Shown one piece after another: positions 3,755 to 35,345 of a stretch of DNA of 64,000 nt. Source of the DNA: Beroe forskalii (Eukaryota > Ctenophora > Nuda > Beroida > Beroidae); assembly GCA_011033025.1 (NCBI GenBank), contig WFMF01000088.1, positions 62,001 through 126,000 of the forward strand. The letters run 5' to 3'. Within the stretch, counting starts at the first letter, position 1; each line of letters starts with the position of its first letter. A model generated the notes under the pieces. That model was not told the origin of the DNA and did not search any database. It saw only the letters and a program-made list of their open reading frames with translations. The position numbers and the translations under genes are program-made.

Positions 3755-3762
3755 CATACGAG

Positions 3763-7263
<3,501 letters not shown>

Positions 7264-7437
7264 TCACTTTTCCTCCACCGCTTGAGGAGACTCCAGTTCG
7301 AGGGTAGCACTAGGAATTTCGTCTGTCTGACAGAGGTAGACACTGAACTTCCCGGTCCTGCGCCCCTCCATCCACTCCACTGCCATGTAGCCCAGGTAGG
7401 AGAACACTAGCCAGACGACAAGCAGCCACATGAACAC
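7264..7437 (-). CDS. UNC93A: UNC93A-like exon 10 (stop codon exon)
   Basis: 174 nt including the TGA at 7266-7264, acceptor ATCTCTTCAG. It encodes the last membrane span VFMWLLVVWLVFSYLGYMAV followed by a hydrophilic tail of about 38 residues ending VEEK. Confidence 0.85.
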   Translation of the reverse strand: MFMWLLVVWLVFSYLGYMAVEWMEGRRTGKFSVYLCQTDEIPSATLELESPQAVEEK

Positions 7438-10400
7438 CTGAAGAGATGTGGTAGATTGGTGTGGTAGGTAGGGAGATATGGTAGGTGGGTAGGTAGGGAG
7501 ACGGGGTATGGAGATGTGGTACATGAGGTGAGTGTCTGAGAGGGAATGAAAGTGATATAATTATAAAGATATAAGTGGTAAATGTGATATAAGGGGATAC
7601 GAGTGGTAAAATGATTATAGCCTGAATCATCAGCAAAAGTACCATTACTCAATTGGAAAATCCACTACATAAATCACAGGGGGCTATGGCATGAAAGAAG
7701 TAAGCGATTTGTTATGAACCCCCAGTAACGTACCCTGAGAAGGACATTGTTCCCGATGAGGTAAGATATCAGGAACCCGAGGCTCTCCCACAGTCTGTAG
7801 TTGGAGAACGCAGGCTCCTCCTTCCCAGTGAAGATGATGCCGTAGAATGCTGAAGTGAATATTGTAGTGTTCGGGGTCAAATAGAATCCTGTTTTCAGTC
7901 CATTGGCAATGGTAGTTTCAATAAAAGTAATGAAAAAACTGATTTCTCCAAACTTGAATTCCAAACTTTTACTTCAAATTCATACCAGAAAAGCAAAGAT
8001 CACAAAAATCTCTGGTTATCTTTCTAAACAATCGCACGTACCATTAATCTGCGTCTGCCAGACAGCATCAGACATGCCCCATACGATGGCGAACACGTAG
8101 ATCCAGCCTTGATGAGAGATGGTGGGAGTCCAGAGCAGCAACACAATCAGCACCACAAGGTTGAGAATAGCCGCTGAAACATAGTAGGGGTTACTAGTAA
8201 ATGAGTAGGCTTATCAGTAAAAAGCGAACGTAGTGAAAAGGGCAGTGAAAAGGGCAGTGAAAAGGGTAGTGAAAAGGGTAGTAAAAAGGGTAGTGAAAAC
8301 TGACAAGGGTAGTGAAAAATCATCAAAATGATATAAAACTTGTTTATTGGATTTCAGGATTTGTGTTTGCCCCACTCATGAAGAAAAGAAGAAACTGTCT
8401 TAGCATGGGCTTCAGAAGGTAAACTCGTTACTTTGTTAATTACTATCTGCTTTTGAATGATTAGCATGTACGTGCAAGTGAGTGAACTCTGCATGCAGTG
8501 CCTTGCGTGAGTGAACATTGCATGCAGTGCCTTACGTGAGTGAACTGCGGATCGAGTCTCTTAGCACTATCCAAACCTGTTGAACGACTCGATTCCTTTC
8601 CCCGCTATGTGTCGTTTATTCGACTGAGGAGCTGCTGTTTATTATCATACGCGCAGTGATTAGTGATTAGCGTTTGGAGTAAAATAGTATGGGTTCCCCA
8701 ACCAGCTCTGGTAAAGTAACAACTTATCGAATGGCTCAGGAATTCGCAGCAAAGTTGCAGCTGCCGTTAAACTGCGTGCCATTTCACTGCGCGTTAAACA
8801 AAGCATGAAGTGTCCCGGTGATATTTTGTTTCAGCTCGTATCTAGAGTTCTGATACATTCAGTCTAGTCTTGAGTCTAACTTGCTCGCTGAGCACTTCGC
8901 TGAGTTCATGACATTTACAGCTGCACTCAAGTTATCACTTCATGATGAATAAGGGAGGTTGCACTTGTTTGTAGCAAACTCATGACAGCTCCTGTAATTC
9001 CTAATCACTTCATACCAGCGTGACGGCAACGGCAAAAGTTGCCGTACTCACGTCTGGGCTTCTGGGTGTTTCTCTATAATTTATTGTTCTTTCATTCGAC
9101 TTTGTATTGCAAACAGGGCTCTGCTGCCAAAGCTTTCATAGTTTGTTTCAAACTTATTAATCGAATATTTCCGCTTTTTCTTGATTCCACGTCCAGATTA
9201 TAACACTAAATAGACTGGAATCTAGTAACTACAAGACAATAAAAGTGAATACTGAGTAACGAATAGTGTCTTGTGAATCGCAAACTGGTGAGTCTGTTAG
9301 CAGATACCAGAACCTAACGACCAGCAAATCGAAACAATTGACTGGATTTAACTGACAAGAGAACCTAATAACAGCTGACGTGAGACTTACCGAGTGTGAA
9401 GACAGGGATCCTTCCCACCCTCTTCAGAATCCACCCAAACACGAAGGAGGAGACAGCGTCCGTGGTGGCGTACACTATGAGAATGTAGCCGATGCTGTGC
9501 ACCCCGATAGGACACGTGATGAACGCCTGGAATAGCGTGGGAATAGCAAAGTATCGAACCCTTGTGCGTGTCTCGTTGTTAATTTCCGAATTTCGATATT
9601 TACGAGCAAAATCGAATATTTGTAAAGTTTTAATGATCGTGTTTGTAATTGAGTCATGTGGATTTCTGTTTAATAATTAGACGAGGAATCGTTTGATTCA
9701 GGCTTCTTAGCTCTCGAGAAATTCTTCTTGCAAATTTTTCAAACGCAACAAATATTTTTCCCAGAGCCTGAAAGGGGTGCCGCTCCTAGCAAGGCGGGAA
9801 TATTGTCAGAACAGAGGGGTCTGCAGAGAGATTTCTGAATTTCGGGGATAGACATGACTTCGCCTTGTCATAATCTATACATTTCTTCGCCGCATAAGCA
9901 AAATTAGTACTTTTAAGTCGGCTTAAGTAAATTTAAACTCAGTCATTGGGATTAAATCCTCCGCTGTAATAAAACAATATTACCCACATTTCTACTAAAT
10001 CTCTAGCTAAACAGTAAACTGCTGTATAGTTTGACTGCTTAAATCCAACTTCATGGTAACTATTTCTTCTTTTTACGAGTTGACTTCGTGCTATTTTCTC
10101 TCTTTAAGTTTGATGATTCTAACATTCTAACGTTCTAATGTCTCCTCAAAAATTTAGTGGATGAAAGAGTTCGTTTATTTCGTTCATTCTTTGCTAGAAA
10201 TTCCATAAAACCACGGATCGACTTTTTCACGATCTGTGTTCGCGGCAATTAATGTATAACTCTCGGATTCTCCAGAAAACACTCCAGACGAGCTAATCAT
10301 ATTTTGAGAGTTAGAAGCGTTTTGTTCTAAGAAAATGAGTAATACGAGTGATTTTTGCTCCTAAAATAACTCATTTTATCACAGTGAAGGACACTTACAC

Positions 10401-13400
10401 TACAAATTCTCATAAGAACAATAATGTCGCACCTCATTTCTGAAAATGAGCATGTGTTTGCATTTCATTGTTTGTTCATAGTTTCTACTTTCTGGTTGCT
10501 AATGGATTTCTAAATTTAGTGATTTAACAAAATCGAACTGGAAAACGATACCTCTCTTACAATTGATCATTATCGCCCCTGCATTTTTGATCAATCATTG
10601 AATATTACATTTCGTTTGAATTAGTGAACTTCAAAGGACATACTCCTATTCATTAAAGAGAGTAATATTCTGTCCCTCTGCGGTCTGCCCGGCAAACATG
10701 TAAACACATACCTAACAACTTTTGACGCAATCAATCCTCCTCAAAAAACCAAATCATTCCAAACATTAATAAACTAGTATGGTAGAAAAAGTACCAATTC
10801 AATGCAAGTCTAAGATACTATTACCACACGGTGAACAAGGTATACTTCATGGTGCACCTATACTCTCAACTGAATGGCACATTTTAGAATATCACTCACG
10901 GCAGTGAAACTGGCTCCAAACCAACCCTGCTCTAAGCCACTCCACACGGTTAAGGGTGTGATAAGCATCTGATACTTGTTACTGGTGAAGTGGGAGAAGG
11001 TGGCTAGGAGGAGTTGTAATCCTGACTTCCCCTGGTAGAGGGAGAGAGTCGGAAAGACAGAATACGGAGCTTTCAGCATTTCAACGGGGCACGGTACGAT
11101 TTATATGATGGACGAATCACGAAAAAAGTTCTTCACAAGATATTTATATTCATGCTTGCTATGTTCCCAAACGAAATTGAATAATTGAAAGATTTAAAGG
11201 TCTTTCAGCACCCACCTTCTGCTCTGTCCGCTCATCCTCTCCATACTTCTGCAGAGGGTCCAGGAAAAGGAAGATTAGAGTGGGTCCTATGACAGCAAAG
11301 GCTAAGTAGATTCCTGCCAGGAGGTACACTTGGGACTTTTCCACTGGGTCAGAGGAACCTCCCGCAGTTACCTTGAAGCTAGATCCACATTTGTCAGCAA
11401 TGTTCTCGGCTGTGGGCTCACTCCAATCATCTTTTGGTGCCAGCACTGGGGAATTTTTGATGACTTCTTCATTCTGGGCATAAAAGTTTTTACCTCACGA
11501 CATTTGTCTTCAGGACACTCTCCTTCATTATCTCTCTCCTTCCCCTAACCAGTAACCATAATCCCAACCTTACCCAACCCTAACACATGCCCGGAGGCGA
11601 AACATAGTACAGTAGTACCGTAAGATGACTTGTTGCAAGGATAAAAGTCCGTTTCCCAAACCTTGAGCTCATGAAATATCACACCACTTACCAGTAGCTG
11701 TGACTATGTTGCCCCAGATGCCCCAGGTTTGGAACATGCAGAAGAAAACACCAAAGAACTTCGTAATCAGAGCCTCCGAACTGACTCCCTTCAGTTTGCC
11801 AGCGTAGGTGCCCATTTGAGAGAGGTAGGTGCACTTAGCAGACCACATGGGGGCAGCTGCCAAGCCTGGAAACGGGCGGTAACTCGGTAATCTGCCGATG
11901 CACACCTGGGGCACAACCTGGGCACACCTGGGGCACACCTTGGGCACACCTGGGGCACACCTGGGGCACATCTCGGGCACACCTCGGGCACACTTCGGGC
12001 ACAAGACACACCTGGGGCACATTTGAGTACAACCACCTGGGGCACACCTCGGGCACCCTGGGGCACACTTGGGGCACATCTCGGACACAATTAATGCACA
12101 AACCATATCTGGGGCACAACCAGCTGAGGGCACATTTCGGGCACATCTAGGGCACACCTGGGGCACATCTCGGGCACATCTCGGGCACACCTGGGGCACA
12201 TCTCGGGCACACCTCGGGCACATTTCGAGAATTATAGTCATATTCAGTGACAGCGCTCAAGATTTGGTCCTCTATCATGGGACTCTATCTTGGTCCTCTA
12301 TCATGGTAGGTAATCTATCTTGGTCCTCTATCATGGTCCTCTATCATGGTCCTCTGTCATGGTCCTCTATCCTGGTCCTCTATCATGGTCCTGGTCCTCT
12401 ATCATGGTATTCCATCCTGGTCCTCCTGTTCGATATAAATATATGAGCTAACGGCTCACTATCATCCATCATGACCCAAACTTTCCCCTCCTACGAAGAT
12501 CTCAGAACAACTGGGATCCTCTCTTCAGAAGATCGAGTACTTCAGTACTGCCTCGATGTGGAACTCCTTCGTCCTCACCACTTCTGTCAGGAATGTCAGA
12601 TCTACATGGAGCTACGATCCTGCTCCACTTCTAAATACAGCGATGGCTACTGCTGGTCCTGTCCTGGCGATCAACACAGCCTCTCGGTCAGAGCAGAAAG
12701 CATCCTCTACAACCGAAGCATTACCCTTACAAACTTCCTTCATCTTCTGTGGATCTTTGCGAACGGTACCAGCATCTCTGATGCAGCCAGGATCCTGTCA
12801 ATGAACGAGAAAACAGTCCGATCCCTCTACAAAGCTATTCGACAGTGTATGGTGGAGGACCTCCTGGAGAACGGAGCCACAAGGAAGATCGGGGGAGAGG
12901 GGCACATTGTTGAGATAGACGAGTCAAAATTCGGAAATCGCAAGAATAACCGAGGACGGCGGGTAAACGGAAAGTGGGTCCTAGGAGGCCACTGCAGAAC
13001 GACCACGGATTGTTTCTTAGCAGAGTGCACAGGCAACAGACGGAACCACCACACCCTTCTCCGCCTCATCAAGCAACATGTTGCTCCTCGCACCATCATC
13101 CTCACCGACAAGTGGAAGGGATACAACGCCCTGCGGCATCATGGCTACACGCATTTGGTGGTGAATCACAGAAGAGGCTTTGTTGACCCACTTACCGGCG
13201 TTCACACGAACACCTGCGAAGGGATGTGGTTTCATGCCAAGAAGCACATGCGACGAGGACACGGCAGGACACGAAGAGACTCCGCAGCCCTCTCCATGGC
13301 CCTCTGTGAGTTTATTTGGCTGCGGAGGCACCGTCTGACACGCTCTGACTCTTCTATCAGACGCTACTTTAACAGAGAACTGCCACAGTTGATGCGTAGA

Positions 13401-16400
13401 ATTTTCGAGTAAGATTCATTGACGTGTTATATGCTAATGTGATATTGATATTGATTATGTATGTACCTTTTGATTGATATACATACCTATTATATTATGT
13501 GATAATGATATTGCAATGAAGATTTGAATTCAATCATCTTTTTAACTTATTCGATAATGAAATAAAGGGGGATGGGAATTGTGGAGCACGTGAACGTTGT
13601 AGAAATATTACACAGGATTTTCGTCTTGAGAACATTGAAATAAGGCACGTGGAATTTGAGCCAGTTGCTTCATTTCCCGATATGTGCCCCAGGTGTGCCC
13701 GAGATGTGCCCCAGGTGTGCCCGAGATGTGCCCGAAATGTGCCCTCAGCTGGTTGTGCCCCAGATATGGTTTGTGCATTAATTGTGTCCGAGATGTGCCC
13801 CAAGTGTGCCCCAGGGTGTTTGAGGTGTGCCCCAGGTGGTTGTACTCAAATGTGCCCCAGGTGTGTCTTGTGCCCGAAGTGTGCCCGAGGTGTGCCCGAA
13901 ATGTGCCCGAGATGTGCCCCAGGTGTGCCCAGGTTGTGCCCCAGGTGTGCATCGGCAGATTACCGAGTTACCTTATTGAGCTTATGCTGACAGAAGTCGA
14001 TCAGTTAGAAATATATCAAAGGAAGTCTCCTATTATTGATGTGTCAAAACCTGAATAATGTTAAGCGATTTATAGCCGGTTTGTCAGGAATAACATGCCA
14101 TTCTACTGTGTGTACTTGTATAACCTATACTGCTTCTTAGACGACATATTGGAGTGCATTTATGTGTGATAATGCAGGGTTCGTGACATATTTATAACGA
14201 TGACAATTGCCCATTTATTAGGTATTGACCAGCCATCAAGTAGTTCAGCTTCCAAATATTTCTGTCATATTTTCCCAGTTAGCAGTATTTAACTGAATCC
14301 CGATATTCGGGCAAGTATTCTAAAGACTTTTCATAGGATGTGCCATGACGCCAAGCAGCGCTGTGCACGTGCTATGGCCTCGGACTAGAGTCAAGGATAC
14401 TCTTTAGTTTTTATTTCCGTAGTTCGCCAGTCAATTTGCGTTATTAGTTGTCACCGTATGCCGTATGCAGAGAATCAATTGCTAGACTCTTACCCAGACC
14501 CTTACGTAAAAGTGTAGAACCTTTGAAATATGCGGTATTGTGTGAAATCATTCACCATGCTAATATTATTATGTAGTTTACATCAAAGGTGCGAATAAAG
14601 GTGCTATTAAAGTATTAAACGACGACGCGACTTTTTGGCGTTTTGAGTGTTATTAAAAATCTAAAAATCATAGTGTCACGGATTTGACAGAATATAAGAC
14701 TCTCCTACCTAAAACAACAGATGCTGGGATGAGAGTACCCCACTTCGGGTAGAACTGAGCCCCAATGTACAGAGTGTACATGAACTGGCAGACCACCATC
14801 GCTAGCTTCACTTTCAATCTGCGGGAGGGAGCCTGTGTTAATGTGGGGGGTCTGAGGTCGATTTTCGGATTTTTGTTGATTCTGATAGAGGAGAACGCCA
14901 GCTACCAGTAGGTTTTTACCACATGAAAAGGTATTGCATTGTTCCTAGCCGAAGTTATGATATTTTAAAATCGCGAGTTCGATTATAATTACAGTGCGCG
15001 CGCAAGCTTCTAACGCTATTTAATTTGCCGAAAATAAACTTTAAAATGTATCTCCTTCAGTTTTTCAGGAAAACCCTTGAAACTTGGTAGTTATGTTCTA
15101 GGGCATAAAAAAACTTTGAATCGAGCCGATTTTTGATTTAGGCCTTACAAGTGAAAATATGGCTTTTTGAAATTTGAAAATCGTCATTTTTGACTATTTT
15201 TGGGACAGTAGCCAACTTTGAGAGGCCATATTTTCACTTCTGAGGCCTAAATAAAAAATCGGCTCGATTCAAAGTTTTTTTTATGCCCCAGAACACAGCT
15301 ACCAAGTTTCAAAGGTTTTCCTCAAAAACTTTTGGAAGAGATACATTTTAAAGTTTATTTTTGGCAAATCGCGTAAGAAGTTTGCGCGCGCACTGTAATT
15401 ACAGGCGAACTCGCGATTTGAAAAGTTCATAACTTCGGCTAGGAACAATATTTTTTCATGGGGTGAAAACCTACTGGTAACTGGCGTTCAGCTCTATCAG
15501 AAACAATGAAAAAACGAAAATCGACCACGGACCCCCCGCCCCCTTTAGATAATAATACTGCATAATATTTGGATAAGTTTTGTTGCGAAACTGCTAAAAA
15601 CAAGTGGTTTTCGAAACAAATCTTATAAAAATATGCTCGAAACTGTGGTTGTAGTATACGTTATACGGTTTGTAATAGTGGGTCGCCCCTTTGGGACTCG
15701 ATATTATTTCTCACCGTATTACTACATTAATGTTACGATAGGTTATACGGAGTAGGCATTACCAGATCAATTTATCAAAAATGTAAGGCTTAGAATCAGC
15801 CTTCTCAGTATAGCTGTTGGTCTTCAGGGGACCATATTCACACAACCTCCTAGAGTGCAGGTTCAGGGCTACTTCCATGCTGGCGCCACGTTGCCTCATG
15901 ACGAGGCTTTGTAACGCTGATTTAACTTTAAACCTGCAACTGCTTACTGAAAGGAACAAGTACCTGCAGGCCCGGTAGTGCGTGATATAGCGGGCAGGGA
16001 TGACGTCATCATCACACCTCAAGGTGGAGCGCTGCTGACGAGGCAGCAGCGACACCTCACACGCAGGGCTCAGCGTGTTAATTGGGTACTTCCAATGTTT
16101 CCAAGGTGGGATTCAGACAGAATAATTAGTGACAAGTCTGCAGTAAACACGGTCACATTATAAACGCCTCCTGTCAGAACGCCTACATATTGTGATATGT
16201 TATATAACATCATTACTCTATTATTATACTGCTATTGTAGCTTTTATTAATGGGCAACAACCTCCCCTTCCACGTTTACTGCCACTTCTATGTCGCGTAG
16301 TATTCCGTCTACAGTTATCTAGCCACCCGTCTGAAGCACTCTCAGCTTCTTTGAAGTTTTCTGAAGTTCTTTGCGTGTTCCTCGAGTGCCTAATTATTTA

Positions 16401-19400
16401 GCTAAAAGGACAGTATATTATAATTATATGCCGTGGGTAAGGGCGGAATTCGGCAGCATAATGTGCATATTTTAAATTAAATAAGACTTTGGTGAAAAGA
16501 ACAGTTTCGTATAATCCTACATAATCCGGGTAAAAATTCAAAGTGATAATTTAAAGCAATAATTGTATGTTATATCAGAATCCAGTTGCTGACTGACATT
16601 CAGGAATTAATAATGGGTTTGCATTGTTTGCTTCTTTTTCAAATTGCTTAACCCGTACGTCTGAATATGAACTTGACTTTCAGAATTAATGCTTCCGAAT
16701 TCGATCTAAATGCCGAAAAAATTGTTCATCTTGGCTTCCGTAATCTCATCTTGATTTTTGAGAAGACGTTTTGATGTTAGACATATAGAAAATGTTTTCA
16801 CATTGTAATCAATGATTTATTCAGTCATAATCGGACAATGATACGTGAAATACTCTTTTTTCTGAATCCTAATGAAAGGAAAAAAGGACCTGCTGTATTT
16901 TCCTTCATTTCAAAGTTTTCTATCGTTCCTTCTAAAACTCTAGTATTTATTTACTTACTTACCATGACATGTCGACATTACGCATATTTTTACGTGTAAT
17001 ATTTTAAGTCAAGCCTTAAATATACTTTTTTCCATGGTCACAGGCAACGCAAAATGCATAATAGTGCTTGCTTCTTTCCTGAATTTTAATTACCATTTCA
17101 TCACAACTAAGCCAACGTTCTGACGAATTGACTGATTCCTTGCTTTACCGTTCAAGAAGTTGCAGAAAGAATATTTCAAATGTTCATCCGTTCGCTTCTG
17201 TATGAAATAGGTAAATAAGGGGCGTGGTGACTGCCGACAGGCATACAAAATCTTGGGATGAAAATCCTAGTTTAGTTATATGTACTTTAGAGGCGTAAGA
17301 CGAACACGCAGACAATATAGAGCCCTGCGAGAGCAGGGCTCTATATAATATTTAAATGTCGCCAGCGAAGCTGGAGACATTTAAATGATTTAGAGTGCGA
17401 GGCGAAGCGAAGCTGAGCCGAGTGCTCTAAATCATATTTCTGCGGTGAGTTTGAGCCTCTAAAGTACTATAGTAGTCGAACGGTGTATACAAGACACACC
17501 CTGTACACAACAAGCACACATTACCTTATATGGTAATAAGCAAAATGCTTGTTTACACATAACAAAAAGCGCATAACTCAGCCGTTTTTTGAGCAATTTT
17601 GATCAAATTTTCAGGATATTACGGGCAACATATGACCAATATAATCCTAGAGTAGCTAACATTTTTGACTTTCAGAAATTGAGATATCTTAGATAAACCG
17701 GTTTTATGTTTAAAAGTTATCGCTTAATAACTGGCTTTTCGGTCATAACTCCGCTTCTGGAGCTCAAAAATGAATCTAAACTTCACTGAGATGTTGCTTT
17801 TATGAAGCTCTAAATATCCTGAAAGTTTCATCAAGTTTGCTCAAAAAACCTCGGAGATATGCACATTTTTGTAACGCAAAAGCAAAGGTCGCGTAGATGT
17901 GTATTTAAATTGGTATTTAATTACAGCGTGTCATAACAAACACATGATATAAAGCGCGTGTGGTAACACGACTCTACGCATATAGTGCTACCCTTTAAAT
18001 CGGTCTAAACCTGTCGTGAGACTACTATATAGTTTTCTATCTGTCTATATAATCTCTAGATAAACATTTATTAATAAGTGTCGTATTTTTGCTTTACAAT
18101 ACAAGTTCTCTCTTTCTTTGATGAAAGTCATTTCCTGCCGAACTTCTGCTGTGACACTTTCTTCCCGTATCTGTGACACATACTCACTTAACAGTTAATG
18201 CTAACTACGACCAGTTCAATCATTCTTCAGAGCATGTTCTGAAGCCTTAGAGTGCAATTGTCTGTCTTGCCGTATTCCGCCTTCCCTCATCCCAATTAAC
18301 AGCCCGGTTTCCTCCTTCCTCTGACATTGTGTCTTTACTCTTTACCGTTGATCCATGAGTCGAATTAAATAATTTGCTAATACCGTGAAAAGTACTGAAA
18401 AGCATCATAATTATAAACAGACTAAAAAAATTTGTTCCAGGGTTCCTTATACTTAATTCCACAACATTATTTAAACAACAGGAATTTCCTTGCAAATTAT
18501 ATCCATTGCCCAATCTTTGGCCACACAATGCCATATATAATGTTCAGATGTTACATTGTTACACTTTAAGTCGCAACACAGCTGATATACTGTACGATTA
18601 ACAAACGAATGGGAGTGTTATATCGAAAATTATCACACGAGGCGTCAGCCGAGTTTGACAATTTTCGATATCACACGATCCATGAGTTTGTTAATTGTAT
18701 TATTACCCGACAAAACAGTAGTCCCTACCACTCGGGTCTGACGACCCTCGTCTGAATTCAACGGTTTTATAGATTTTCGAGTGCTCCTTCATAAAATCAA
18801 CAATTTATTTAACGATATTCTGCTCTATTATTCCGCCACTGTTCAGTAGTCCTATAAAGGAGTGATATATCGATAATTATCACACTGGAGTTTGAGCCAC
18901 GGTAGGGTAATAATGGTATATATCATGTTGAAGAAACTGCAATCTTCTACCTGAAAAAGAAAGGCTTTTTGAGGATGCAGCTCAACAAACTTTTCAATAC
19001 TTTTATGATATTTGCTGACACCTTTGTTTTATCTTACATCGTAGAATCAGATATTCGTATATTCTCCTAGAGTGTAGATAATCATTATCTGATAATTTTC
19101 ATTGAAGATTACCGAAAATTAGTTTTGTCGTAGCACAGAGACGAGAAAACAGAACAAGCATGATGCAGAGACTTGATAGGACAGAGAGTTGACTGTTAAT
19201 CATAACTAGGGACAAGTTTTCAATTTCAGAGTCTGTTTTTTTTTAACCTTACATATCATATTTTTCAGTAGATTCTTAATTATTTTTTGATATCTCGCAG
19301 AGCCTAATTTAATATCTTCGTTTGTAGCGCCCAGATTTAAAAGATCATTACAGGGTGTTGAAGGGCTTATCTCTGTATATTCTCAACTCTCAAGCCATTG

Positions 19401-22400
19401 TAGGACCACTGTTTGTTCTATAGCATAGTTAAAACGTCATCAATAATTGTGCCTGATAAAATCGATCAATTTTTCGTAGAAAAATATATATTAGGTGTAA
19501 CAAGGCGAAAATCTAATGTCAGCAAAGACATACCACAAATTAAGGTTGACTATCTTTTAATCAATTCATTTTAGATCATCCCAATTCCTCGATTATTACT
19601 TGAATTACAGTCCCCAGTTCTGCTATAAATGTTGGACAATTTAATGAACCCTGGTATATCTTGGTTCAGAAACTCGAAAGGAACGCTCCAAGTCTTCAGT
19701 TTAACTGGTCCTACGCCGTCCTTAGTGTTGTCCTTTGAGCCACTTAAACGGGGAATAGAACCTACAGGCATTGCATCATGTGATCCAGACTATATCTTTT
19801 AATCTTTGATGATTCATTGCTTTGATAATTTATTAAATATTAAATAAGTTGCATGGCATCATCCAGTCTAGGATTGTGCTACAGCTGTAGAGCACTTTGG
19901 CTCTGAGACCCAGCTAATCATATTTTGAGAGTTAGAAGCGTTTTGTTCTAAGAAAATGAGTAATAGGAGTGATTTCTGCTCCTAAAATAACTCATTTTAT
20001 CATGATGAAGGACACTTACACTACAAATTCTCATAAGAACAATAATGTCGCACCTCATTTCTGAAAATGAGCATGTGTTTGCATTTCATTGTTTGTTCAT
20101 AGTTTCTACTTTCTGGTTGCTAATGGATTTCTAAATTTAGTGATTTAACAAAATCGAACTGGAAATCGATACCTCTCTTACAATTGATCATTATCGCCCC
20201 TGCATTTTTGATCAATCATTGAATATTACATTTCGTTTGAATTAGTGGACCTCGAAGGACATACTCCTATTCATTAAAGAGAGTAATTTATTACTGTCCC
20301 TCTGCAGTCTGCCCTTTTTACATTAACCCGGCAAACATAAAAACATACCTAACAATCTTCTTCAAAAAAGAAAATCATTCCAAATATTAATAAACTAGTA
20401 TGGTAGAAAAAGTACCAATTTATTGCTAGTCAGTCTAAGATACTAGTACCACACGGTAATCAAGTTATACTTCATGGTGCACCTATACTCTCAACTGTAT
20501 GGCACATTTAAGTACTATGGTATATTACTCACGGCAGTGAAACTGGCTCCAAACCATCCCTGCTCTAAGCCACTCCACACGGTTAAGGGTGTGATTAGCA
20601 TCTGATACTTGTTACTGGAGAAGTGGGAGAGGGTGGCTAGGAGGAGTTGTAATCCTGACTTCCCCTGGGGGAGGGAGAGAGTCAGAATGGGGAACTTCCA
20701 GCATTTCAGTGGGGCACGGTCAGGCCCGTAGACAGAGGGGGGGCTAGGGGGGCTGCAGCCCCCCTCGGAAGAAAAGGTACCATTTCAAAAAAATAGTTAG
20801 AATAAAAGTTTTTTGACTGATAATCATAATTATATACTTTGGCTTGGTTAAATAGTGGCAGTTTAATCTTATTCAGACTGTTATAGCTCGCTTTTAGTTG
20901 ATAGTATAGTTTTTCAATGCTCTGATTTTGACAAATAGCACCCTGTTCATTTCCTGTACATTTCTTTATTGTAAAAATCATCCTACAGCACCCTCATTTC
21001 CCTAAAATTTTCCGGGGGCTCCGCCCCCCTAACCCCTTGGCAGGGGCTTCGCCCCTGGACCCTGCTGAGGGCTGCGCCCCCAGACCCTGCTGACCCTGCT
21101 GAGGGCTGCGCCCCCAGCTTGCTGGCTTCGCTCCCGGTGCAAGGGCCCCTCCCGGAAAAAATCCTGGCTTCGGGCCTGGGCACGGTATGATTTATATGAT
21201 TACAAATCACAAATAAAAAGGGTAATAAAATGCTCTTCAAAAGATATTTTCATGCTTGCTACCAAAATGAGATTGAATGACTAAATAAAGGTCTCTCAGC
21301 ACCCACCTTCTGCTCTGTCCGCTCATCCTCTCCATACTTCTGCAGAGGGTCCAGGAAAAGAAAGATCAGAGTGGGTCCTATGACAGCGAACGCTAAGTAG
21401 ATTCCTGCCAGGAGGTACACTTGGGACTTCTCGACTGGGGCAGAGGAACCTCCCGCAGTTACCTTGAAGCTAGATCCACATTTGTCAGCAATTTCCTCGG
21501 CTGTGGGCTCACTCCAATCATCTTTAGGTGCCAGCACTGGGGAATTTTTGATGATTTTTTCATTCTGGGCATAAACGTTTTAACCACACGACAATTGACT
21601 TCATGGAACTCTTTCTATTATTATCTCTCTCCTTGCCCTAACCAGTAACCATAATCCCAACCTTACCCAACCCACACATATGAGCCCGGAGGCGAAACAA
21701 AGTACCGTAGGAAGACATGTTGGTAGGTGATAAGTCCGTTCCCCAAACTGTGAGCTCCAAAAACATCACACCGCTTACCAGTAGCTGTGACTATGTTGCC
21801 CCAGATGCCCCACGTTTGGAACATGCAGAAGAAAACTCCAAAGAACTTCGTGATCAGAGCCTCCGAACTGACTCCTTTCAGTTTGCCAGCGTAGGTACCC
21901 ATTTGAGAGAGGTAGGTGCACTTAGCAGACCACATGGGGGCAGCTGCCAAGCCTGGAAACGGGCGTGAATTATTGAGCTTATGCTGACAGAAGTCGATCA
22001 GTTAGAAATATATCAAAGGAAGTCTCCTATTATTGATGTGTCAAAACCTGAATAATGTTAAGCGATTTATAGCCGGCTTGTCAGGAATAACATGCCATTC
22101 TACTGTGTGTACTTGTATAACCTATACTGCTTCTTAGACGACATATTGGAGTGCATTTATGTGTGATAATGCAGGGTTCGTGACATATTTATAACGATGA
22201 CAATTGCCCATTTATTAGGTATTGACCAGCCATCAAGTAGTTCAGCTTCCAAATATTTCTGTCATATTTTCCCAGTTAGCAGTATTTAACTGAATCCCGA
22301 TATTCGGGCAAGTATTCTAAAGACTTTTCATAGGATGTGCCATGACGCCAAGCAGCGCTGTGCACGTGCTATGGCCTCTCGGACTAGAGTCAAGGATACT

Positions 22401-25400
22401 CTTTAGTTTTTATTTCCGTAGTTCGCCAGTCAATTTGCGTTATTAGTTGTCACCGTATGCCGTATGCATAGAATCAATTGCTAGACTCTTAACCAGACTC
22501 TCACGTAAAAGTGTAGAACCTTTGTGATATGCGGCATTGTGTGAAATCATTCACCATGCTAATATTATTATTTGCGTCAAAGGTGCGAATAAAGGTGCTA
22601 TTAAACATTTAAACGACGACGCGGCTTTTTGGCGTTTTGAGTGTTATTAAAAATCTAAAAATCATAGTGTCACGGATTTGACAGAATATAAGACTCTCCT
22701 ACCTAAAACAACGGATGCTGGGATGAGAGTACCCCACTTCGGGTAGAACTGAGCCCCAATGTACAGAGTGTACATGAACTGACAAACCACCATCGCTAGC
22801 TTCACTTTCAATCTGCGGGAGGGAGCCTGTGTTAAGGGGGCCGGGGGGTCTGAGGTCTGATTTTCGGTTTTTGTTTTCTCTGATAGAGCTGAACGCCAGC
22901 TACCAGTACGTTTTTACCCCATGAAAAAATATTGTTCCTAGCCGAAGTATGATATTTCAAATCGCGAGTTCGCCTGTAATTACAGTGCGCGCGCAAACTT
23001 CTCACGCGATTTGCCGAAAATAAAATTTAAGATTTATCTCCCCCTACAGTTTTTGAGGAAAACCTTTCTAGGGCATAAAACTGAACTTTGAATCGAGCCG
23101 ATTTTTGATTCAGGCCTTAGAAGTGAAAATATGGCTTTTTGAAATTTGAAAATCGTAATTTTTGACTATTTTAGGACAGGAGCCAACTTTGAGAGGCCAT
23201 ATTGTCACTTCTGAGGCCTAATATAAATCAAAAATCGGGTCGATTCAAAGTTTTATTTTATGCGTCAGATCATAGCTATCAAGTTTCAAGGGTTTTCCTC
23301 AAAAACTGTAGGAGGAGTAGTCAGGGATGAAATGGAATCCCGTGCTTTTGGAATGTTAATAAAGAGTTAGGACCGGTTTCCGGTATTTTAGACTATGCTG
23401 AATCGATCTAGCTATGCCGGCAATTTTTATTTCGATGCCGTCACCCTTTTTTGGCCACGCCCATTTTTGGCCTGTCGGAAGCCAAGATGGGACAACTCGA
23501 AAATTATTTTTGCCATTACATGGCAAGTAGGGTATCAAAATAGGGGTTTTCTGGGGCGGGAAAAACGATGCAATGATTCTTTTTACTCAAAAATGTTCAT
23601 ATGCAGAGTTACGGTGACCACGCCCATTTTTGGCCTTGCACGATGGCTGAAATTTGGAACCCATCGATTTCATACTAAGGGCCTCATGTGGGGTATCAAA
23701 ATAGGGGTTTTCTGGGGCGAGAAAAACGATGCAATGATTATTTTAACTCAAAAATGTTCATATGCGGAGTTACGGCAGACCACGCCCATTTTTGGCCTTG
23801 CGCGATGGCTAAAATTTGGAACTCATCAATTCCATACTAAGGGCATCATGTGGGGTATCTAAATAGAGGTTTTCTGGGCCGAGGAAAACGATGCAATGAT
23901 TCTTTTTACTCGAAAATTTTCATGTACGGAGTTACCGTGACCACGCCCATTTTTTGGCCTTGCACGATGGCTAAAATTTGGAACTCATCAATTCCATACT
24001 AAGGGCCTCATGTGGGGTATCAAAATAGGGGTTTTCTGGGGCGAGAAAAACGATGCAATGATTATTTTAACTCAAAAATGTTCATATGCGGAGTTACGGC
24101 AGACCACGCCCATTTTTGGCCTGGTGCGATGGCTGAAATTTGGATCACATCAATTCCATACTAAGGGCATCATGTGGGGTATCTAAAAGAGGTTTCCTGG
24201 GCCGAGAAACATGATAAAACTATTAGTTTCATTCACAAATGTTCATTTGTGGAGTTATTGTGACCAGGCCACGCCCATTTTTGGCGCATGGATTCCACTT
24301 TTGGCGTATGGATTCCATTTTTGGCGCATGGATTCCATACTTGGCACATGATCCCATACTTTTCACTTTGAGCAGCATGTGGGCTTTCATTATAACGGTT
24401 TTTCGGCTCGAAGAACACGATGCAACCCTCAGTTGATCAAAAGTGGTCCCAGATGAGTTGTGGCGGCCATTATCCACCACAGTGTGGAATACTGCTATAG
24501 TTTACCTTCTGTATCTTATTGTGCCTATTTCGAACTTTGTCAGTGCGTTATACGATCGAGCTACTGGAGTACGTGACTGCTACTGTCGCAGGAGGTATTC
24601 CCGGATTACTCCTGTAGGACTACCAACAGGAGCCCAACTCATCACCGCACGCCAAACGCCCTCGCGACTGTTTCTCTTATTATCCTGACCCTAACATGTG
24701 CTCTCTGAGGTTTCTGACAGACTAGAGAGCTTTTATAATTTCTATTTCCTACCTAATTAATCCTTTTATAATTTCTATTTTCTACCTCAATATAAAGATT
24801 TAGCTTGTTGTTCCTAACAAATTCAACGTTTTTGTCTGATCTCTTGGGAAATATTTTTCTATAATTTCTATTTACAACTTAACAACAATATTTATTCTTT
24901 TCTGATTCCATCACACATGGTTGTAATCTTGGATCCAATTTGAAGCTTTTAGTATGTTCAAGCTTCTAGTTAACCATAGGCTAATAGGTAAGCTATTTAA
25001 TGAATATGATGGGTACAAACTGGATCCTACTTTGAACTTCATCTGTTGTAAGCTTGAAGTTGTACTTCTGTTGATAAGGGCCTGTTAGGGAAGTAAGACA
25101 GGGCAAAAGTTGCTCGCTCCAATTCTGCATTTTCACTATAGTAATGCATTGCTGGCCGTTTGGTTGTTTTATTTAAGTAACTTTAACTTTAGAAAATCGT
25201 GACCATTCCTCATACTTGCTCAAGCCACGCATAAAAAGCTATGAAAATGAAAAATAGCTATACGAAACTAAGCATCCATGTTTCCTATTTTCACTCTTCT
25301 AAAAGTTTATTGCCAATGTGGTCTTTTGAGTGAAACTCACGGCCTTAGTTTATACATTTAACTTACACAGGCCTAGCCATGACACACCCATAGCGTCCCA

Positions 25401-28400
25401 ATGAATAAAAAAGTTTCTTGAGTTCTTGTGCTCAAAAATCACAATGCTGATACCCCAATCCTGCCTAAAGTATGAAGTATGAATTCAATGTGTCATAGGT
25501 AAATAATAAATTTGAGCCGTCGTGTAAGGCATGGTCTCTATGAATCCATATTTATTATCTAATCTTGTTAAAATAAGTGATAACAGAAGTTGATTTGTGT
25601 CTCCTGAAAAGAATCAGGAGCAAGGGTATTATACTTTTGAACATTTTTTTGGGTCATGTTTGACCCTTACCGCCAATAAGCTAACGTAAGTACCGAAAAT
25701 GTTTGAAACTGATAAGGGCAAATACGATTTCTGCAAACAGGCGAAAGATGGGGCTGATTGCCATTATAACACCCCTAGGAACTTCTTTTGTCCTTTTGAT
25801 CAAAACTTATGGCTGCTTCATGCTTTAGCAATGTAAAGTAGTATTTTGATACCTCCATGTTGCCCTTGGGATGGGATAGCTATGTTCAAAATTTCAACCA
25901 TTGCACTGGGCCATAACTGGACGCTGGTACTGGTCACTATAACTCTGCACATGATCTTGTCAAACAATAATGATGAACCTCTATATTGCACACTGTGGTG
26001 AATAATGGCTACGGCCGCAAACTCATCTAGGAACCACCTTTGATAAAAACAGATGATTGCATCCTGTTCATTGAGCCGAAAAACCGTTATAATGAAAGCC
26101 CACATGCTGCTCAAAGTTAAAAAGTATGGGATCCATGCACCAAGTATGGAATCCATGCGCCAAAAATGGGCGTGGCCTGGTCACAATAACTCCACAAATG
26201 AACATTTGCGAATGAAACTAATAGTTTTATCATGTTTCTCGGCCCAGGAAACCCCTTTAAGATACCCCACATGATGCCCTTAGTATGGAATTGATGTGAT
26301 CCAAATTTCAGCCATCGCACCAGGCCAAAAATGGGCGTGGTCACGGTAACTCCGTACATGAAAATTTTCGAGTAAAAAGAATCATTGCATCGTTTTTCTC
26401 GCCCCAGAAAACCTCTATTTAGATACCCCACATGATGCCCTTAGTATGGAATTGATGAGTTCCAAATTTTAGCCATCGCGCAAGGCCAAAAATGGGCGTG
26501 GTCTGCCGTAACTCCGCATATGAACATTTTTGAGTTGTAATAATCATTGCATCGTGTTTGTCGCCCCAGAAAACCCCTATTTTGATACCCCACATGAGGC
26601 CCTTAGTATGAAATCGATGGGTTCCAAATTTCAGCCATCACGCAAGGCCAAAATTGGGCGTGGTCACCGTAAATCTGCATATGAACATTTTTGAGTAAAA
26701 AAAATCATTGCATCGTTTTTCCCGCCCCAGAAAACCCCTATTTTGATACCTTACTTGCCATGTAATGGCAAAAACAATTTTCGAGTTGCCCCATCTTGCC
26801 TTACGACAGGCCAAAAATGGGCGTGGCCAAAAAAGGGTGACGGCATTGAAATAAAAATTGCCGGCATAGCTAGATCGATTCAGCATAGTCTAAAATACCG
26901 GAAACCGGTCCGAACTCTTTATTAACATTCCAAAAGCACGGGATTTATATATCGACCATTTCATCCCTGACTAGAGATACATTTTATTATTTTAAAGATG
27001 ATTTACGGCAAATCGCGTCATAAGTTTGCGCGCGCACTGTAATTATAAGCGAACTCGCGATTTGAAAAATTCATAACGTCGGCTAGGAACAATATGTTTC
27101 ATGAAGTAAAAACCTACTGGTAGCTGGCGTTCTCCTCTATCAGAAAAAAACAAAAAAAAAACAAAAACCCACCTCGGACCCCCTTCGGCCCCCTTAAGCC
27201 ATCTGTAATGATTGGAAACCATTGAGTATCAATAAGAATAAGATACTGCAACTACTATATATATTTTGGATAAGTTTTGTTGCGAAACTGCTAAAAACAA
27301 GTGGTTTTCGAAACAAATCTTATTAAAATATGCTCAAGACTGTGGTTGCAGTATACGTTATACGGTTCGTTATAGTAGCTCGCCCCTTTGAGGCTCGATA
27401 TTATCTCTCACCGTATTACTACACTAATGTTACAATAGGTTATACGGAATAGTCATTACCAGATCAACTTATCAAAAATGTGAAGCTTAGAATCAGCCTC
27501 CTCAGTATAGCTGTTGGTCTTCAGGGACCATATTCTCGTCACACAACCTCCTAGAGTGCAGGTTCAGGTCTACTACCACGCTGGCGCCACGTTGCCTCAT
27601 GACGAGGCTTTGTAACGCTGATTTAACTTTAAACCTGCAACTGCTTACTGAAAGGTACAAGTACCTGCAGACCCGGTAGTGCGTGATATAGCGGGCAGGG
27701 ATGACGTCATCATCACACCTCAAGGTGGAGCGTTGCTGACGAGGCAGCAGCGACACCTCACACGCAGGGTTCAGCGTGTTAATTGGGTACTTCCAATGTT
27801 TCCAAGGTGGGATTCAGACAGAATAATTAGTGACAAGTCTGCAGTAAACACGGTCACATTATAAACGCCTCCTGTCAGAACGCCTACATATTGTGATATA
27901 TTATATACCATCATTACTCTATTATTATACTACTACTATTGTAGCTTTTATTAATGGGCAACAACCTCCCCTTCCACGTTTACTGCCAGTTCTATGTCGC
28001 GTAGCATTCCGTCTAGTTCTGCTGGTATCTAGCCACCCGTCTGAAGCTCTCTCAGCTTCTTTGAAGTTTTCTGAAGTTCTTTGCGTATTCCTCGAGTGCC
28101 TAATTATTTAGCTAAAAGGACAGTAGATTATAATTATATACCGTGGGTAAGGGCGGAATTCGGCAGCATAATGTGCATATTTTAAATTAAATAAGACTTT
28201 GGTGAAAAGAAGAGTTTCGTATAATCCTACATAATCCGGGTAAAAATTCAAAGTGATAATTTAAAGCAATAATTGTATGTTATATCAGAATCCAGTTGCT
28301 GACTAACATTCAGGAATTAATAATGGGTTTGCATTGTTTTCTTCTTTTTCAAATTGCTGAAACTGTACGTCTGAATATGACCTTGACTTCCAGAATTTAT

Positions 28401-31400
28401 GCTTCCGAATTCAATCTAAATGCCGAAAAACTTTTGAATAATATGAAATTGGTCATCTTGGCTTCCGTAATCTCATCTTGATTTTTGAGAAGACGTTTTG
28501 ATGTTAGACATATAGAAAATGTTTTCACATTGTAATCAATGATTTATTCATTCATAATCGGACAATGATACGTGAAATACTCTTTTTTCTGAATCCTAAT
28601 GAATGGAAAAAAGGACCTGCTGTATTTTCCTTCATTTCAAAGTTTTCTATCGTTCCTTCTAAAACTCTAGTATTTATTTACTTACTTACCATGACATGTC
28701 GACATAACGCATATTTTTACGTGTAATATTTTAAGTCAAGCCTTAAATATACTTTTTTCCATGGTCACAAGCAGCGCAAAATGCATAATAGTGCTTGCTT
28801 CTTTCCTGAATTTTAATTACAATTTCATCACAACTAAGCCAACGTTCTGACGAATTAACTGCTTCCTTGCTTTACCGTTCAAGAAGTTGCAGAAAGAATA
28901 TTTCAAATGTTCATCCGTTCGCTTCTGTATGAAATAGGTAAATAAGGGGCGTGGTGACTGCCGACAGGCATACAAAATCTTGGGATGAAAATCCTAGTTT
29001 AGCTATATAGTTTTCTATCTGTCAATATAATCTCTAGATAAACATATTTTATTAATAAGTGTCGTATTTTTGCTTTACAATACAAGTTCTCTCTTTCTTT
29101 GATGAAAGTCATTTCCTGCCGAACTTCTGCTGTGACACTTTCTTCCCGTATCTGTGACACTTACTCACTTAACAGTTAATGCTAACTACGACCAGTTCAA
29201 TCATTCTTCAGAGCATGTTCTGAAGCCTTAGAGTGCAATTGTCTGTCTTGCCGTGTTCCGCCTTCTTTCATCCCAATTAACAGCCCGGCTTCCTCCTTCC
29301 TCTGACATTGTGTCTTTACTCTTTACCGTTGATCGATGAGTCGAATTAAATAATTATTATATTTGTAAATATAGTGAAAAGTTCTGAAAGGCATCATGAT
29401 TATTAACAGACGGAACAAATTTGTTCCGGGGTTCGTTATACCTAGTTCCACAACATGATTTGAACAACAGGAATTTCCTTGCAGATTATATCCATTGTCC
29501 AATCTTTGGCGACAAAATGACATTTATAATGTTAAGATGTTACATTGTTATACATTTGAGTCGCGACACAGTTGGTATACTGCTTTATCATGTTAAAGAA
29601 ACTGCAAACTTCTGCCTGAAAAATAAAGGCTTTTGAGAATGCAGCTCTACGAACTTTTCGATACTTTTATGATATTTGCTGACACCTTTGTTTTATCTTA
29701 CATCGAAGAATCAGATATTCGTATATTCTTCTAGAGCGTAGATAATCATTATATCTGATAATTTTCATTGAAGATCACCGAAAATTAGTTTTGTCGTAGC
29801 ACAGAGACGAGAAAACAGAACAGGCATGATACAGAGACTTGATAGGACAGAGACTTGACTGTTAATCATAACTAGGGACAAGTTTTCAATTTCAGAGTCT
29901 GTTCTTTTTGAACCTTACATATCATATTTTTCAGTAGATTCTTAATTATTTTTTGATATCTCGCAGAGCCTAATTTAATATCTTCGTTTGTAGCGCCCAG
30001 ATTTAAAAGATCATTACAGGGTGTTGAAGGGCTTATCTCTGTATATTCTCAACTCTCAAGCCATTGTAGGACCACTGTTTGTTCTATAGCATAGTTAAAC
30101 GTCATCAATAATTGTGCCTGATAAAATCGATCAATTTTTCGTAGAAAAATATATATTAGGTGCTAACAAGGCGAAAATCTAATGTCAGCAAAGACATACC
30201 ACAAATTAAGGTTGACTATCTTTTAATCAATTCATTTTAGATCATCCCAATTCCTCGATTATTACTTGAATAACAGTCCCCAGTTCTGATATAAATGTTG
30301 AGCAATTTATTAATGAACCCTGGTATATCTTGGTTCAGAAATTCGAAAGGAACGCTCCAAGTCTTCAGTTTAACTGGTCCTACGCCGTCCTTAGTGTTTT
30401 CCTTTGAGCCAGCTAAACGGGGAATAGGACCTACAGGCATTGCAACATGTGATCCTGACTATATCTTTCAATCTTTGATGATTCATTGCTTTGAAAAGTT
30501 ATTAAATATTAAATAAGTTGCATGGCATCATCCAGTCTAGGATTGTGCTACAGCTGTAGAGCACTTGGCTCTGAGACCCACAATAATTGCTATCTGTTCC
30601 CTATTGCTCCCAGGGTAAGTTCCTATCCTAAGTAGTCAAGTAACAACCGCTCCATTCCAACCTGAGGATACCATCTTGTGCTCTACAGCCCATGTTTCTG
30701 TGAGGCGTGATGGTATTCTCGGACAGAATCATACCCGTCATATTTACAAACAGCGCCCTCAAGACTTCACTTTGGGAAAATATAGAGGAGAGTCTATAAT
30801 ATTATACATCATGATTCATTAAAATTAATGGATGTAAATTTCCAGAAAATCTGGCTTCCCGTCTCAGCTGCTGTAGTTTGAATGTGCGCATATTTAGAAT
30901 ACCCGGGCCGTATACCAGTTAAATTATCATCAGATGTTTTCGATGATCAGATTGACAGTACAAACGAGTTCACAAGTATTATATTCACTAGCTGGTGTGT
31001 ATGCTGCCAAGGGAGTGTAAGCAGTGTTTTTGTCTTGATTTTTGTATAAAAAACGTTAGTTTCGTCAAGACAATGGCCCGTTCTTGTATGCATAGCGCTT
31101 CGAGCAATGAAAGTTAATATTTTCCTTTTGCTCTTTTCTAGACTCTTACTAAACGCTAATTGGAAGTAGATAAGCACTTGATTCCATTAACAAATTAGCT
31201 GGGTTTTGTTGCTTGGAAGCTGATTGCACAGACACTACAGCAACAGTGCACAAACCACCCCAAGACATTCTCCTTCTTACCGGAGATCACTCCCAGTGGC
31301 AGCTCTTGTAGGGCTTTCCTTAATTTAAAGAACCTCTCCGCGGACATTTCGTACTACGACAAGCTATTCCAGATTCCATTACATATATTCGAACATATAC

Positions 31401-34400
31401 TCATATATTTAATTTATAACATCTCGATTTAATAGCGTATTTTAAACTGCACTGCAGCTCCTATCCTAAGATCTAACACTTGTAGCGAGTTTGGGGTGAG
31501 AAACTGTGGAAACGTATAAAAAGCGGCCCGGTATATAGTTCGAATAAGGGCCATAGTAGGCATGATAGATAGACGTCAGAATATACCATTAATATTACAT
31601 TGTCGTTGTAGGTACCTATAAGAAGCCCGGCAATTGTTCTGCAGAAACCAGAGTAATCTTCGGGCCGCTTACCGTTGCAGTAGCTAACAGCTGGGATAAT
31701 GGAAAGTTTCTCCTGATAGTTTAACACTGCTCTACACGGCATATAGACCGAGGTCTTGCAGGCTATACCTTTCATATTATCACATATTCAGTCTAAAATC
31801 AGTTTTATTGGTATATCTCGTCAATTGTTGCTCTTGTTTTATTGTTGTTTTAAAATTTGAAAGGTTACAGTTGCTACTCGGAGAAAAATTTTGTTTAACA
31901 AGAAAACACCACTTTTTAACATGCTTTTACCATAAATTCTCCAAAACGTCGAAAATTTTGGGGGTTTAAAAGTGCCGTGTGTTCTATAAGAGCATAAGTT
32001 TGTGTCGTCGTTTAGTCTCTTCCTCGGCCGGGTTGCATGTATGTGCTTTCTTCAGTTTTATGTTGTCGTAATTACATATGATTACACGGCATACAGGGGT
32101 CTCTGGTCCCGTAGCATAATATGAGCATGAATTACGTAGTTCATTGTTCTGACAATAATCCAGATTTCAGAGTAAATCTCAGTTCTGTTTGACGAGACTC
32201 TGAGTCCTTCATTTGAATGAATCGACAGGGCGTCAATAGTCCTTCCCATAAACAGAGCAAATGAGAGACATCAATCTTGAGTATTTGTTGATACTTTGAT
32301 ATTTGAGATTATTAGAAAATTCTTTTTCAGGCAGCACATTCCTTTCTCTGGCAGTTCAAAGTGTTTAATTATTTATCTCAATATTTAATTCCTAAGTAGG
32401 CTCCGTCTGCTGCTGGGAAATTTGAAAGTTGGATACTTATAAGCACTGAAATTGCTAGGTCACTACCAATTCTTGTACTTTCTCTGCCTTGTTGACAAGA
32501 CTTGCAGCAGAGTGGAGGCAGAAGGCGTTTACATTTGGTCGACATGTAATTAGCTCACTGATATTATGCTTTGATAGTGTTACGAAGGTATTGGGTCCCG
32601 CGCCTTGTTTCATTAATTAGATAGGACACTTGAAGCAGCATCACAATTAGTACTGTCGATACTAACCCGGCACCCAACTTCATAGCAAGAGTCGTGAGGA
32701 ATAAAATGTTATTCGAGCAAAATATAATATAAGTTAGCAGGTATTACATGGAGTTTAACCTCCTTTCAAGAAAGGACATGAAATATGTCACTTTAACACG
32801 TAAAGTTATATTATTCATGGTGACAGATTAAATTGTTGTCTGACTTCTGAACTAATCTGAAGTTCCTACATTTTATTGCCATTGTGACCAACTATTCAGT
32901 GTCTTGTACTCTGAATTCCTTTTCTACGTCCCAAGGAACAACATTCCATAATACTATAATATGATGACACGTACAAATTCTAGTGGAATGACACCCTAAA
33001 ACCTGCCTAGAGAGCACAGAGGGGAAGCCTGGACCGCCATTTGTCGTGGCTGATAGCGATTTTCTTGGAGTCTTAGGTTACCATAATAGCATCCTTTGCA
33101 GCCGTTTGCTCTTTATTCTGCCCCAAACTTGCCGAAAGATTGTACTAAAATGAAGTAGGAGCAGGACTCATTAACGAGAATGATGACATTTTCTCATCCA
33201 TCTTGGATGGCTGGCTATTATAATCGCACTGTCTTTGGCGTCTTTTCTCAAAGCAATGTTATGCAATGGCACTGCTAACTGCTTCCATAAAACGATGAGA
33301 TCACCATGTTACTCTAGGTCTGAATATGTTAAACTTGAGATTTACTACGGCTTTTTTAGGTGTGTCAGGCAGCAGATAGGACAGTTTCAGATCAATTAAA
33401 TCACTATTGCGTCTTTGTCTGTACAAGCCATGGTAAGTAATTTGTGATATATGCTACTTAAAGGGATTCCCTCAATCAGAAACTCCAACAAAACATCACC
33501 TAGGCCAATATTTTGGCCACCAATTAGGCATCATGGGCAACAAACCAAATAGGATTGTGAGTTAGTAAAATAAAGTTATGTTTTATCATTGGCTGTTTGC
33601 AAGTTTTAAATTGCCGTAAATAGCCCAGCCCATAGCTTGAAAATGTTAGTATGACAAGTGATAACGTTAAAAACAGTCTAGACAGCAATGGGTAGCACCT
33701 ACGTCACTGACATTCGTGACATGAAATCACAGAGCACCTTCTAACGTCAAAACTTCCGTGACAGCACTATAGATTACTTGGAGGGGGACAACTACTACTA
33801 CTAGAGTACTTGCTGAGGGTGATGGATCTATAGTTTTACAGTTTGCTGAGCTGTGCGCTGTGTTGTGCGCTCATAGCTCACTCTTACAGTCGCGTGTACG
33901 AGGCTTTTTCTGTCGACGATCTCACATCGCAAAGTTTTATACACGAATCATGCCTGCGACGCACCAAAACGTTTGGCATCGCACCAGAACGTTTGGCAAC
34001 TTCACAGAGCAAAAAGCATTGGTATACAATGGGACGCAACCCTATGCAATTCTCTGCTCCAAGCGTTTTATAGATTTCTCCTTAATTCCCACGCTCAGAT
34101 GGTTCTTTCACCCACAAGCTTATAATAGTTGTCTCTGATTAAGAAACCTCATAATTTTGTTCGATAACAATATACTAATATAATAGGAGCTCACAATTAC
34201 TATAGAACTATGTAATTGTAAGGATTGTAAAACCTTGTAAAAATAATCTAATAAAGCCTGTAGACTACATTAAAGACTGCTTAAACGACTCTTACACAGC
34301 TACAACAGGATTGTTTTCGTTTTCCTGATTTACTTTTAGGATCCTTCATAAATGACTCAATGAATAGGCATGGTTTTTGATAATCACTTATGTTCCGTGG

Positions 34401-34907: not shown

Positions 34908-34937
34908 TCGCAGCTCATCTCCCCTCGACCAAGAGTT
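34848..34937 (-). CDS. UNC93A: UNC93A-like exon 1 (start codon exon)
   Basis: The acceptor TTTTTCAG precedes AACTCTTGG and the donor is CAG|GTGAAC. It encodes the first membrane span, MWKNVIVIGFGFMFLFTAFQ. The in-frame ATG at 34907-34905 is favoured because it gives the family length. The acceptor-like 5-prime edge implies at least one upstream non-coding exon. It ends in phase 0. Confidence 0.8.
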
Positions 34938-35345
34938 CTGAAAAAGTACCATCACTGAGAAACAACAAACAAAGAAAGAGCAGCTAATGGCTCCCACTTC
35001 ATGATAGTATACCAATACACCGTGTAGTGTGTAGTGTGTTTTGTGTAGTGCTAATACGTCAATCTTCAAAGATTGTCTGTTGAGGCATTTCAATATTTTT
35101 GACATATTGTTAAGAATCTATCAATATTAATAAATCAAGTTGGAAAATGGAAATTATACACGGAATACAATAGAATTTTACTTTATTGATCCTGATGTTC
35201 CTGTTCCCGCATCACGACTTTTTAAAACCTTATAACTATTCATTATCGTATCATCAATATTTCGGTATTAATTATTGAATCTTCTGTTGAGGAGCTCCAA
35301 GGTTTGTGGCCATCAGAAACCCGTTACCCATTACAGTTTAGTGCA
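34938..35345. promoter_or_regulatory. Shared divergent 5-prime region of UNC93A-like and four-span genes
   Basis: About 0.4 kb separates exon 1 of the minus-strand UNC93A-like gene from the ATG of the plus-strand four-span gene. No clear TATA box was seen. The head-to-head layout suggests a bidirectional promoter, unless unseen upstream non-coding exons lie further out. Confidence 0.3.

Follow-up and report, generated by a model that had tools for sequence, protein, structure and literature searches.

The window analysed here, 64,000 nt of the ctenophore Beroe forskalii (positions 62001-126000 of contig WFMF01000088.1, our C1002, 537,377 bases), carries on its minus strand a complete UNC93A-like gene that encodes 461 residues and contains two copies of exons 3 to 6. 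Self-BLAST of the window, in which the longest 60 rows were considered, recovered six colinear segments that pair positions 10291-19912 with 19912-30580 in direct orientation; wider searches covered the whole assembly (216,145,372 bases in 1134 contigs). The initial annotation had placed a duplication of exons 3 to 6 inside one UNC93A-like gene, and self-BLAST, exon coordinates and a match to the Pfam UNC-93 family agree on that arrangement. The gene and its two duplicated units are laid out below in window coordinates and in transcription order.

19912-30580, minus strand: unit B, first in transcription order (self-BLAST, junction alignment)
10291-19911, minus strand: unit A, second in transcription order (self-BLAST, junction alignment)
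19911-19912: unit junction, without a gap, 1 nt (A) shared
34848-34907, minus strand: coding part of exon 1, counted from the ATG chosen, donor GTGAAC; second copy not found in the assembly
34464-34585, minus strand: exon 2, ending in phase 2; second copy not found in the assembly
22703-22812, minus strand: exon 3B (splice sites and frame)
21779-21952, minus strand: exon 4B (splice sites and frame)
21307-21536, minus strand: exon 5B (splice sites and frame)
20533-20664, minus strand: exon 6B (splice sites and frame)
14709-14818, minus strand: exon 3A (splice sites and frame)
11692-11865, minus strand: exon 4A (splice sites and frame)
11216-11445, minus strand: exon 5A (splice sites and frame)
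10900-11031, minus strand: exon 6A (splice sites and frame)
9391-9526, minus strand: exon 7, entering in phase 0; second copy not found in the assembly
8042-8173, minus strand: exon 8 (open 461-residue translation; search of region 6300-10290)
7734-7849, minus strand: exon 9 (open 461-residue translation; search of region 6300-10290)
7264-7437, minus strand: exon 10 with the stop codon (open 461-residue translation; search of region 6300-10290)

The anatomy first described for this gene was recovered in both copies: exons 3 to 6 measure 110+174+230+132 = 646 nt, their GT/AG ends are intact, neither block contains a stop or frameshift, and the flanking exons are single-copy, the regions of exons 1-2 and 7-10 matching only themselves and short unrelated stretches. 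When joined to exons 1-2 and 7-10, either block yields an open 461-residue protein ending at the same stop. The full-length B and A proteins both match UNC-93 (PF05978) over profile positions 10-375 of 379 (B, 91.7 bits, E 6.9e-26; A, 93.0 bits, E 2.8e-26; curated cut-off 22.9); MFS families match them more weakly. The assembly holds 27 UNC-93 family matches. Six others each occupy one long open frame (383-563 residues), unlike the intron-rich gene of the window, and the contigs carrying some of these single-frame matches may come from other organisms.

Full inclusion of block B followed by full inclusion of block A shifts the frame at the joining of exon 6B to exon 3A and, as had been predicted, runs into a stop in exon 4A (TGC TAA), at nt 967 of the coding sequence and 892 nt upstream of the final exon junction; omitting both blocks likewise breaks the frame. 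The 50-55 nt rule predicts decay for mRNAs with premature stops upstream of the last junction, and decay of an mRNA carrying both blocks is therefore expected. Without a change of order, the eight block exons can be combined into 256 subsets, and in 20 of these the frame is open as far as the normal stop. Five subsets use each exon kind once and encode 461 residues (BBBB, BBBA, BBAA, BAAA and AAAA), three of them B/A mixtures. Two use every kind and repeat one, exon 6 in a form of 505 residues and exon 4 in a form of 519. From the remaining 13, exon 4 is missing, or exon 6, or both, and in two of them whichever of these exons is present occurs twice. The skipping of exon 4A alone also keeps the frame. 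The initial statement that the blocks cannot be used together thus stands for whole blocks, which meet the stop, but not for mixtures, since the 20 open subsets include three full-length B/A combinations. Measured against the usual description of mutually exclusive exons, the neighbouring homologues here are of equal length and phase as four-exon blocks rather than as single exons, and joint inclusion breaks the protein for full blocks, whereas exon 4 or exon 6 alone doubles in frame.

The two 646-nt blocks differ at 22 nt, of which 17 are synonymous and five fall in exactly four codons (N/E, D/A, F/L and T/S; residues 170, 188, 244 and 248 of the two protein forms), in keeping with the approximately four residue differences first reported. 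The corresponding Ks is 0.123 (17 synonymous changes over 150 sites) and Ka is 0.010 (five replacement changes over 498), a ratio of 0.08. If one block had been drifting since the split, about 15 replacements (at the noncoding rate) or 28 (at the synonymous rate) would be expected against the five seen (P 0.003 or 1e-7, respectively), an expectation that equates the split with the start of drift and does not hold for copies that began as alleles. Both blocks look to be under purifying constraint, and a large functional split between the isoforms is unlikely because only four residues differ.

Outside the exons, 339 of 5731 aligned sites differ (5.9%), and 47 indels separate the units over the six aligned segments; these values come from segment-wise alignment, a global alignment of whole units having been misled across inserts. 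The differences are clumped (variance/mean 5 to 15, depending on the size of the counting window). Two non-exon runs of 389 and 360 aligned sites are free of substitutions, as counted with gaps ignored and aligned segments strung together, while elsewhere 100-site windows contain 22 or 23 differences, and 57 of the 366 non-exon sites around exons 4-5 differ. Each unit also carries insertions that the other lacks.

11878-13972: A-only DNA transposon, with an IS1595-like transposase open reading frame at 12447-13409 on the plus strand (profile match, inverted ends)
17282-18024: A-only repeat element, 743 nt, found at 39 other places at 93-97% (best 40 of 927 candidates)
18593-18920: A-only insert, 328 nt (unit alignment)
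20721-21178: B-only short repeat element with an 8-nt target-site repeat (unit comparison)
23318-26988: B-only 3.7-kb insert with long inverted arms (self-BLAST)

In the A-only transposon (2.1 kb; transposase PF12762, E 8.2e-13), the two inverted ends agree perfectly for at least 33 nt, and positions 489-2093 of the element are 97% identical to a copy on contig C225 (among the best 40 of 264 candidates). No target-site repeat was seen flanking it, and five bases present at the unit B site are missing. It ends 12 nt upstream of exon 4A. For the B-only short element, the empty site is intact in unit A, and the element itself lies 5.8% from a consensus of 12 other copies, which were picked among the best matches; we count this divergence in favour of a true duplication.

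The junction at 19911/19912 is gap-free, so that the usual gap sign of a false haplotype duplication is missing, and no N occurs in C1002:1-256000. Exon-block DNA matches only units A and B among the 50 matches listed (best 40 of 1089 candidates). No second haplotype copy was found, short repeats aside, for window positions 6300-10290 (all nine candidates) and 34300-35200 (both candidates), nor for a further two stretches of 9 kb in other parts of the contig (best 40 of 1468 and best 40 of 1963 candidates). Proteasome matches number 25, on 13 contigs (all 34 candidates scored), without a clear adjacent second copy, and on contig C269 two of them lie in one open frame and overlap in profile range. 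The chaperonin family gave 45 matches on 11 contigs; on C558 it includes one inverted pair of nearly equal scores, the kind of case looked for as a retained second haplotype, and on C691 two neighbouring matches in direct orientation have unequal scores and different exon structures. Taken as a whole, the units are probably real DNA rather than two haplotypes in series.

Nearby duplications were sought in C1002:1-256000 only, as same-strand pairs of at least 500 nt and 80% identity within 40 kb, with rows from short-period arrays set aside; their density accordingly rests on one contig. Three further colinear direct duplications emerged, with segment divergence of 4.75 to 15.9%, and we count their presence on the side of real DNA.

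C1002:22325-28217 and 28416-32397: duplication, 198 nt between units (pair list)
C1002:205682-211567 and 211629-219510: duplication, 61 nt between units (pair list)
C1002:137470-138171 and 138172-138903: duplication of 0.7 kb, exact abutment, 4.8% diverged

The pair at C1002:205682-219510 differs by 15.9% over 3.8 kb and by 4.75% and 4.9% in two adjoining pieces, a mosaic like that of the exon 3-6 duplication. The pair at C1002:22325-32397 contains a frame that we take to be TPGS2-like, together with exons that are presumably C2-domain-like; over the first 220 codons of the frame the copies show 19 synonymous changes and one replacement, and close to its end the lower copy carries differences that disrupt the frame. 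An argument from orphan exons in this pair was dropped, as the unit apparently includes the gene in whole or for the most part and the two copies are a single replacement apart in those 220 codons.

The reading that we favour, tentatively and with real reservations, is a true internal tandem duplication whose copies have diverged and been converted and which contributes one exon of each kind to every full-length mRNA. A duplication of approximately 10 kb inside the UNC93A-like gene, with hardly any sequence shared at the join, would have created the two sets of exons 3 to 6; the copies would subsequently have diverged, gained their separate transposon insertions and been partly homogenised by gene conversion. 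Full-length mRNAs would then be built with block B, block A or a B-to-A mixture, while those with both full blocks would stop early and be removed by nonsense-mediated decay. Of all this, the gene anatomy, the frames, the scarcity of replacements and the private insertions are seen directly; the reality of the DNA, the conversion, the decay and the use of both blocks are inferred. Judged from the gene sequence, frame and decay would be the only visible gate between the blocks; unless one of the blocks is held down by some control, many transcripts should then be lost to decay. We regard as unlikely a frame-gated switch in which the changeover from B to A can occur at any exon boundary, giving five equal-length proteins, with full double inclusion destroyed by the frame.

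Several observations weigh against mutually exclusive use of two real blocks. Two alleles would be just as likely to show constraint in both copies. There is no incompatibility of splice sites that could enforce exclusivity: the 6B donor (GTGAGT) and the 3A acceptor (CAG) are ordinary GT/AG sites, and since the intron between them would span 5.7 kb, steric exclusion of 6B-to-3A joining is also unlikely. Ordinary splicing would make that join and ruin the mRNA; allelic copies would be spared this cost. Block A may already be impaired by the transposon next to exon 4A and is possibly less used, because the element, at a distance of 12 nt, appears to have replaced the sequence where the branch point would lie. 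A gap-free junction is no proof of real DNA, given that some false duplicate pairs are joined by sequence without read support rather than by a gap, according to the accessible part of one study (PMC9516828). Furthermore, synonymous divergence is alike in this and the TPGS2-like duplication, as a shared level of heterozygosity would give, and none of the four duplications falls below about 4.8% overall divergence, which could reflect a collapse threshold. Neither of these last two points is strong, since four cases, all from a single contig, bear on them. The initial prediction of mutually exclusive cassettes thus retains the whole-block frame logic and the constraint on both blocks, but loses ground to the expectation that alleles would look alike, the lack of a splice-site barrier, the in-frame mixtures and the transposon near exon 4A.

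Of the alternatives to exclusive use of a real duplication, a false haplotype duplication survives best, and we consider it possible though not probable. The units would be two alleles assembled in series, and the gene an ordinary one with a single set of exons 3 to 6. That would explain why both blocks are intact and constrained and why the frame breaks in the tandem order; the mosaic of clean runs and 100-site windows with 22-23 differences fits alleles of varying age; and the resemblance in synonymous divergence between two duplications would follow as well. False exon gains in assemblies, and also false pairs whose joining sequence lacks read support, are documented in the available text of PMC9516828. 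Speaking for real DNA, however, are the junction without gap or overlap, the absence of N in 256 kb and the failure to find other-haplotype copies of four stretches (two of them searched among the best 40 candidates only), and divergence of 57/366 around exons 4-5 or of 15.9% over 3.8 kb nearby would be extreme for alleles.

Rather unlikely, in our estimation, is a duplication that is real but not used exclusively, either one in which a recent unequal exchange joined two haplotypes that already differed or a polymorphic or damaging allele, with block A unused or ruining most transcripts. Divergence and constraint would then predate the duplication, and the constraint would require no alternative splicing; nor do the splice sites stop 6B-to-3A joining. 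The transposon that ends 12 nt before exon 4A, at the expected location of the branch point, fits an impaired block A; with other UNC-93 family matches present in the assembly (27 matches), loss may be tolerated; and the accessible part of PMC9516828 provides a precedent for a tandem duplication in a single contig that is genuine and specific to one allele. Neither block, however, has acquired a stop or frameshift, and the private insertions indicate lineages long separate, though haplotypes would be separate too. Finally, two separate genes, in which the units would contain a private first exon for block A or a private last exon for block B, are very improbable: the 5.7 kb between exons 6B and 3A could hide a promoter, but exons 1-2 and 7-10 were found once each in the assembly and outside the units, which leaves a lone block without both protein ends.

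Other repeats were noted in passing. A long CA/TG dinucleotide run of approximately 250 nt occupies window positions 5950-6230, and minisatellite units of 21 nt, related between the two sites, form large arrays about 42 kb apart at 2486-3755 and 43506-45902. Elsewhere in the assembly, chaperonin copies at C558:175419-178055 and 214250-216894 have nearly equal scores and are inverted about 40 kb apart, and UNC-93 matches on C1112 and C173 likewise form inverted pairs; these could be palindromic duplications or assembly fold-backs.

If the cassettes are real, they would illustrate an early stage of multi-exon duplication, in which frame and mRNA decay alone could separate the cassettes before splicing control evolves; if they are false, the locus shows how convincingly serial haplotypes can imitate an alternative-splicing device. 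A limited literature search, which is no proof of absence, found no earlier report of UNC93A splicing or duplication. Mutually exclusive exons that arose by tandem exon duplication are well known, to judge from the accessible parts of two publications (PMC9013439; PMC6071210), and exclusive cassettes at this locus would join that known class. The likeness lies in the tandem duplicate exons, one copy of which enters each mRNA in the published cases; here, in contrast, four exons with their introns were duplicated as one block, known from DNA alone. Published alternating sets of homologous exons also involve whole sets, which their authors hold to be probably trans-spliced; in the CG1637 example the sets are 3-prime exons, whereas the present block is internal, between single-copy exons. 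The false exon gains described in the available text of PMC9516828 resemble this locus in having adjacent duplicated exons inside one gene, but the duplication here is gap-free. The duplicated last exon of oyster AOX, as far as the accessible part of the report goes (PMC5589949), is likewise an invertebrate tandem exon duplication with proteins of equal length, a property that is here predicted. The oyster exon is terminal, its copies are strongly diverged (63.5% similar in C. virginica) and it was shown by cDNA, whereas the UNC93A-like block is internal and read from DNA.

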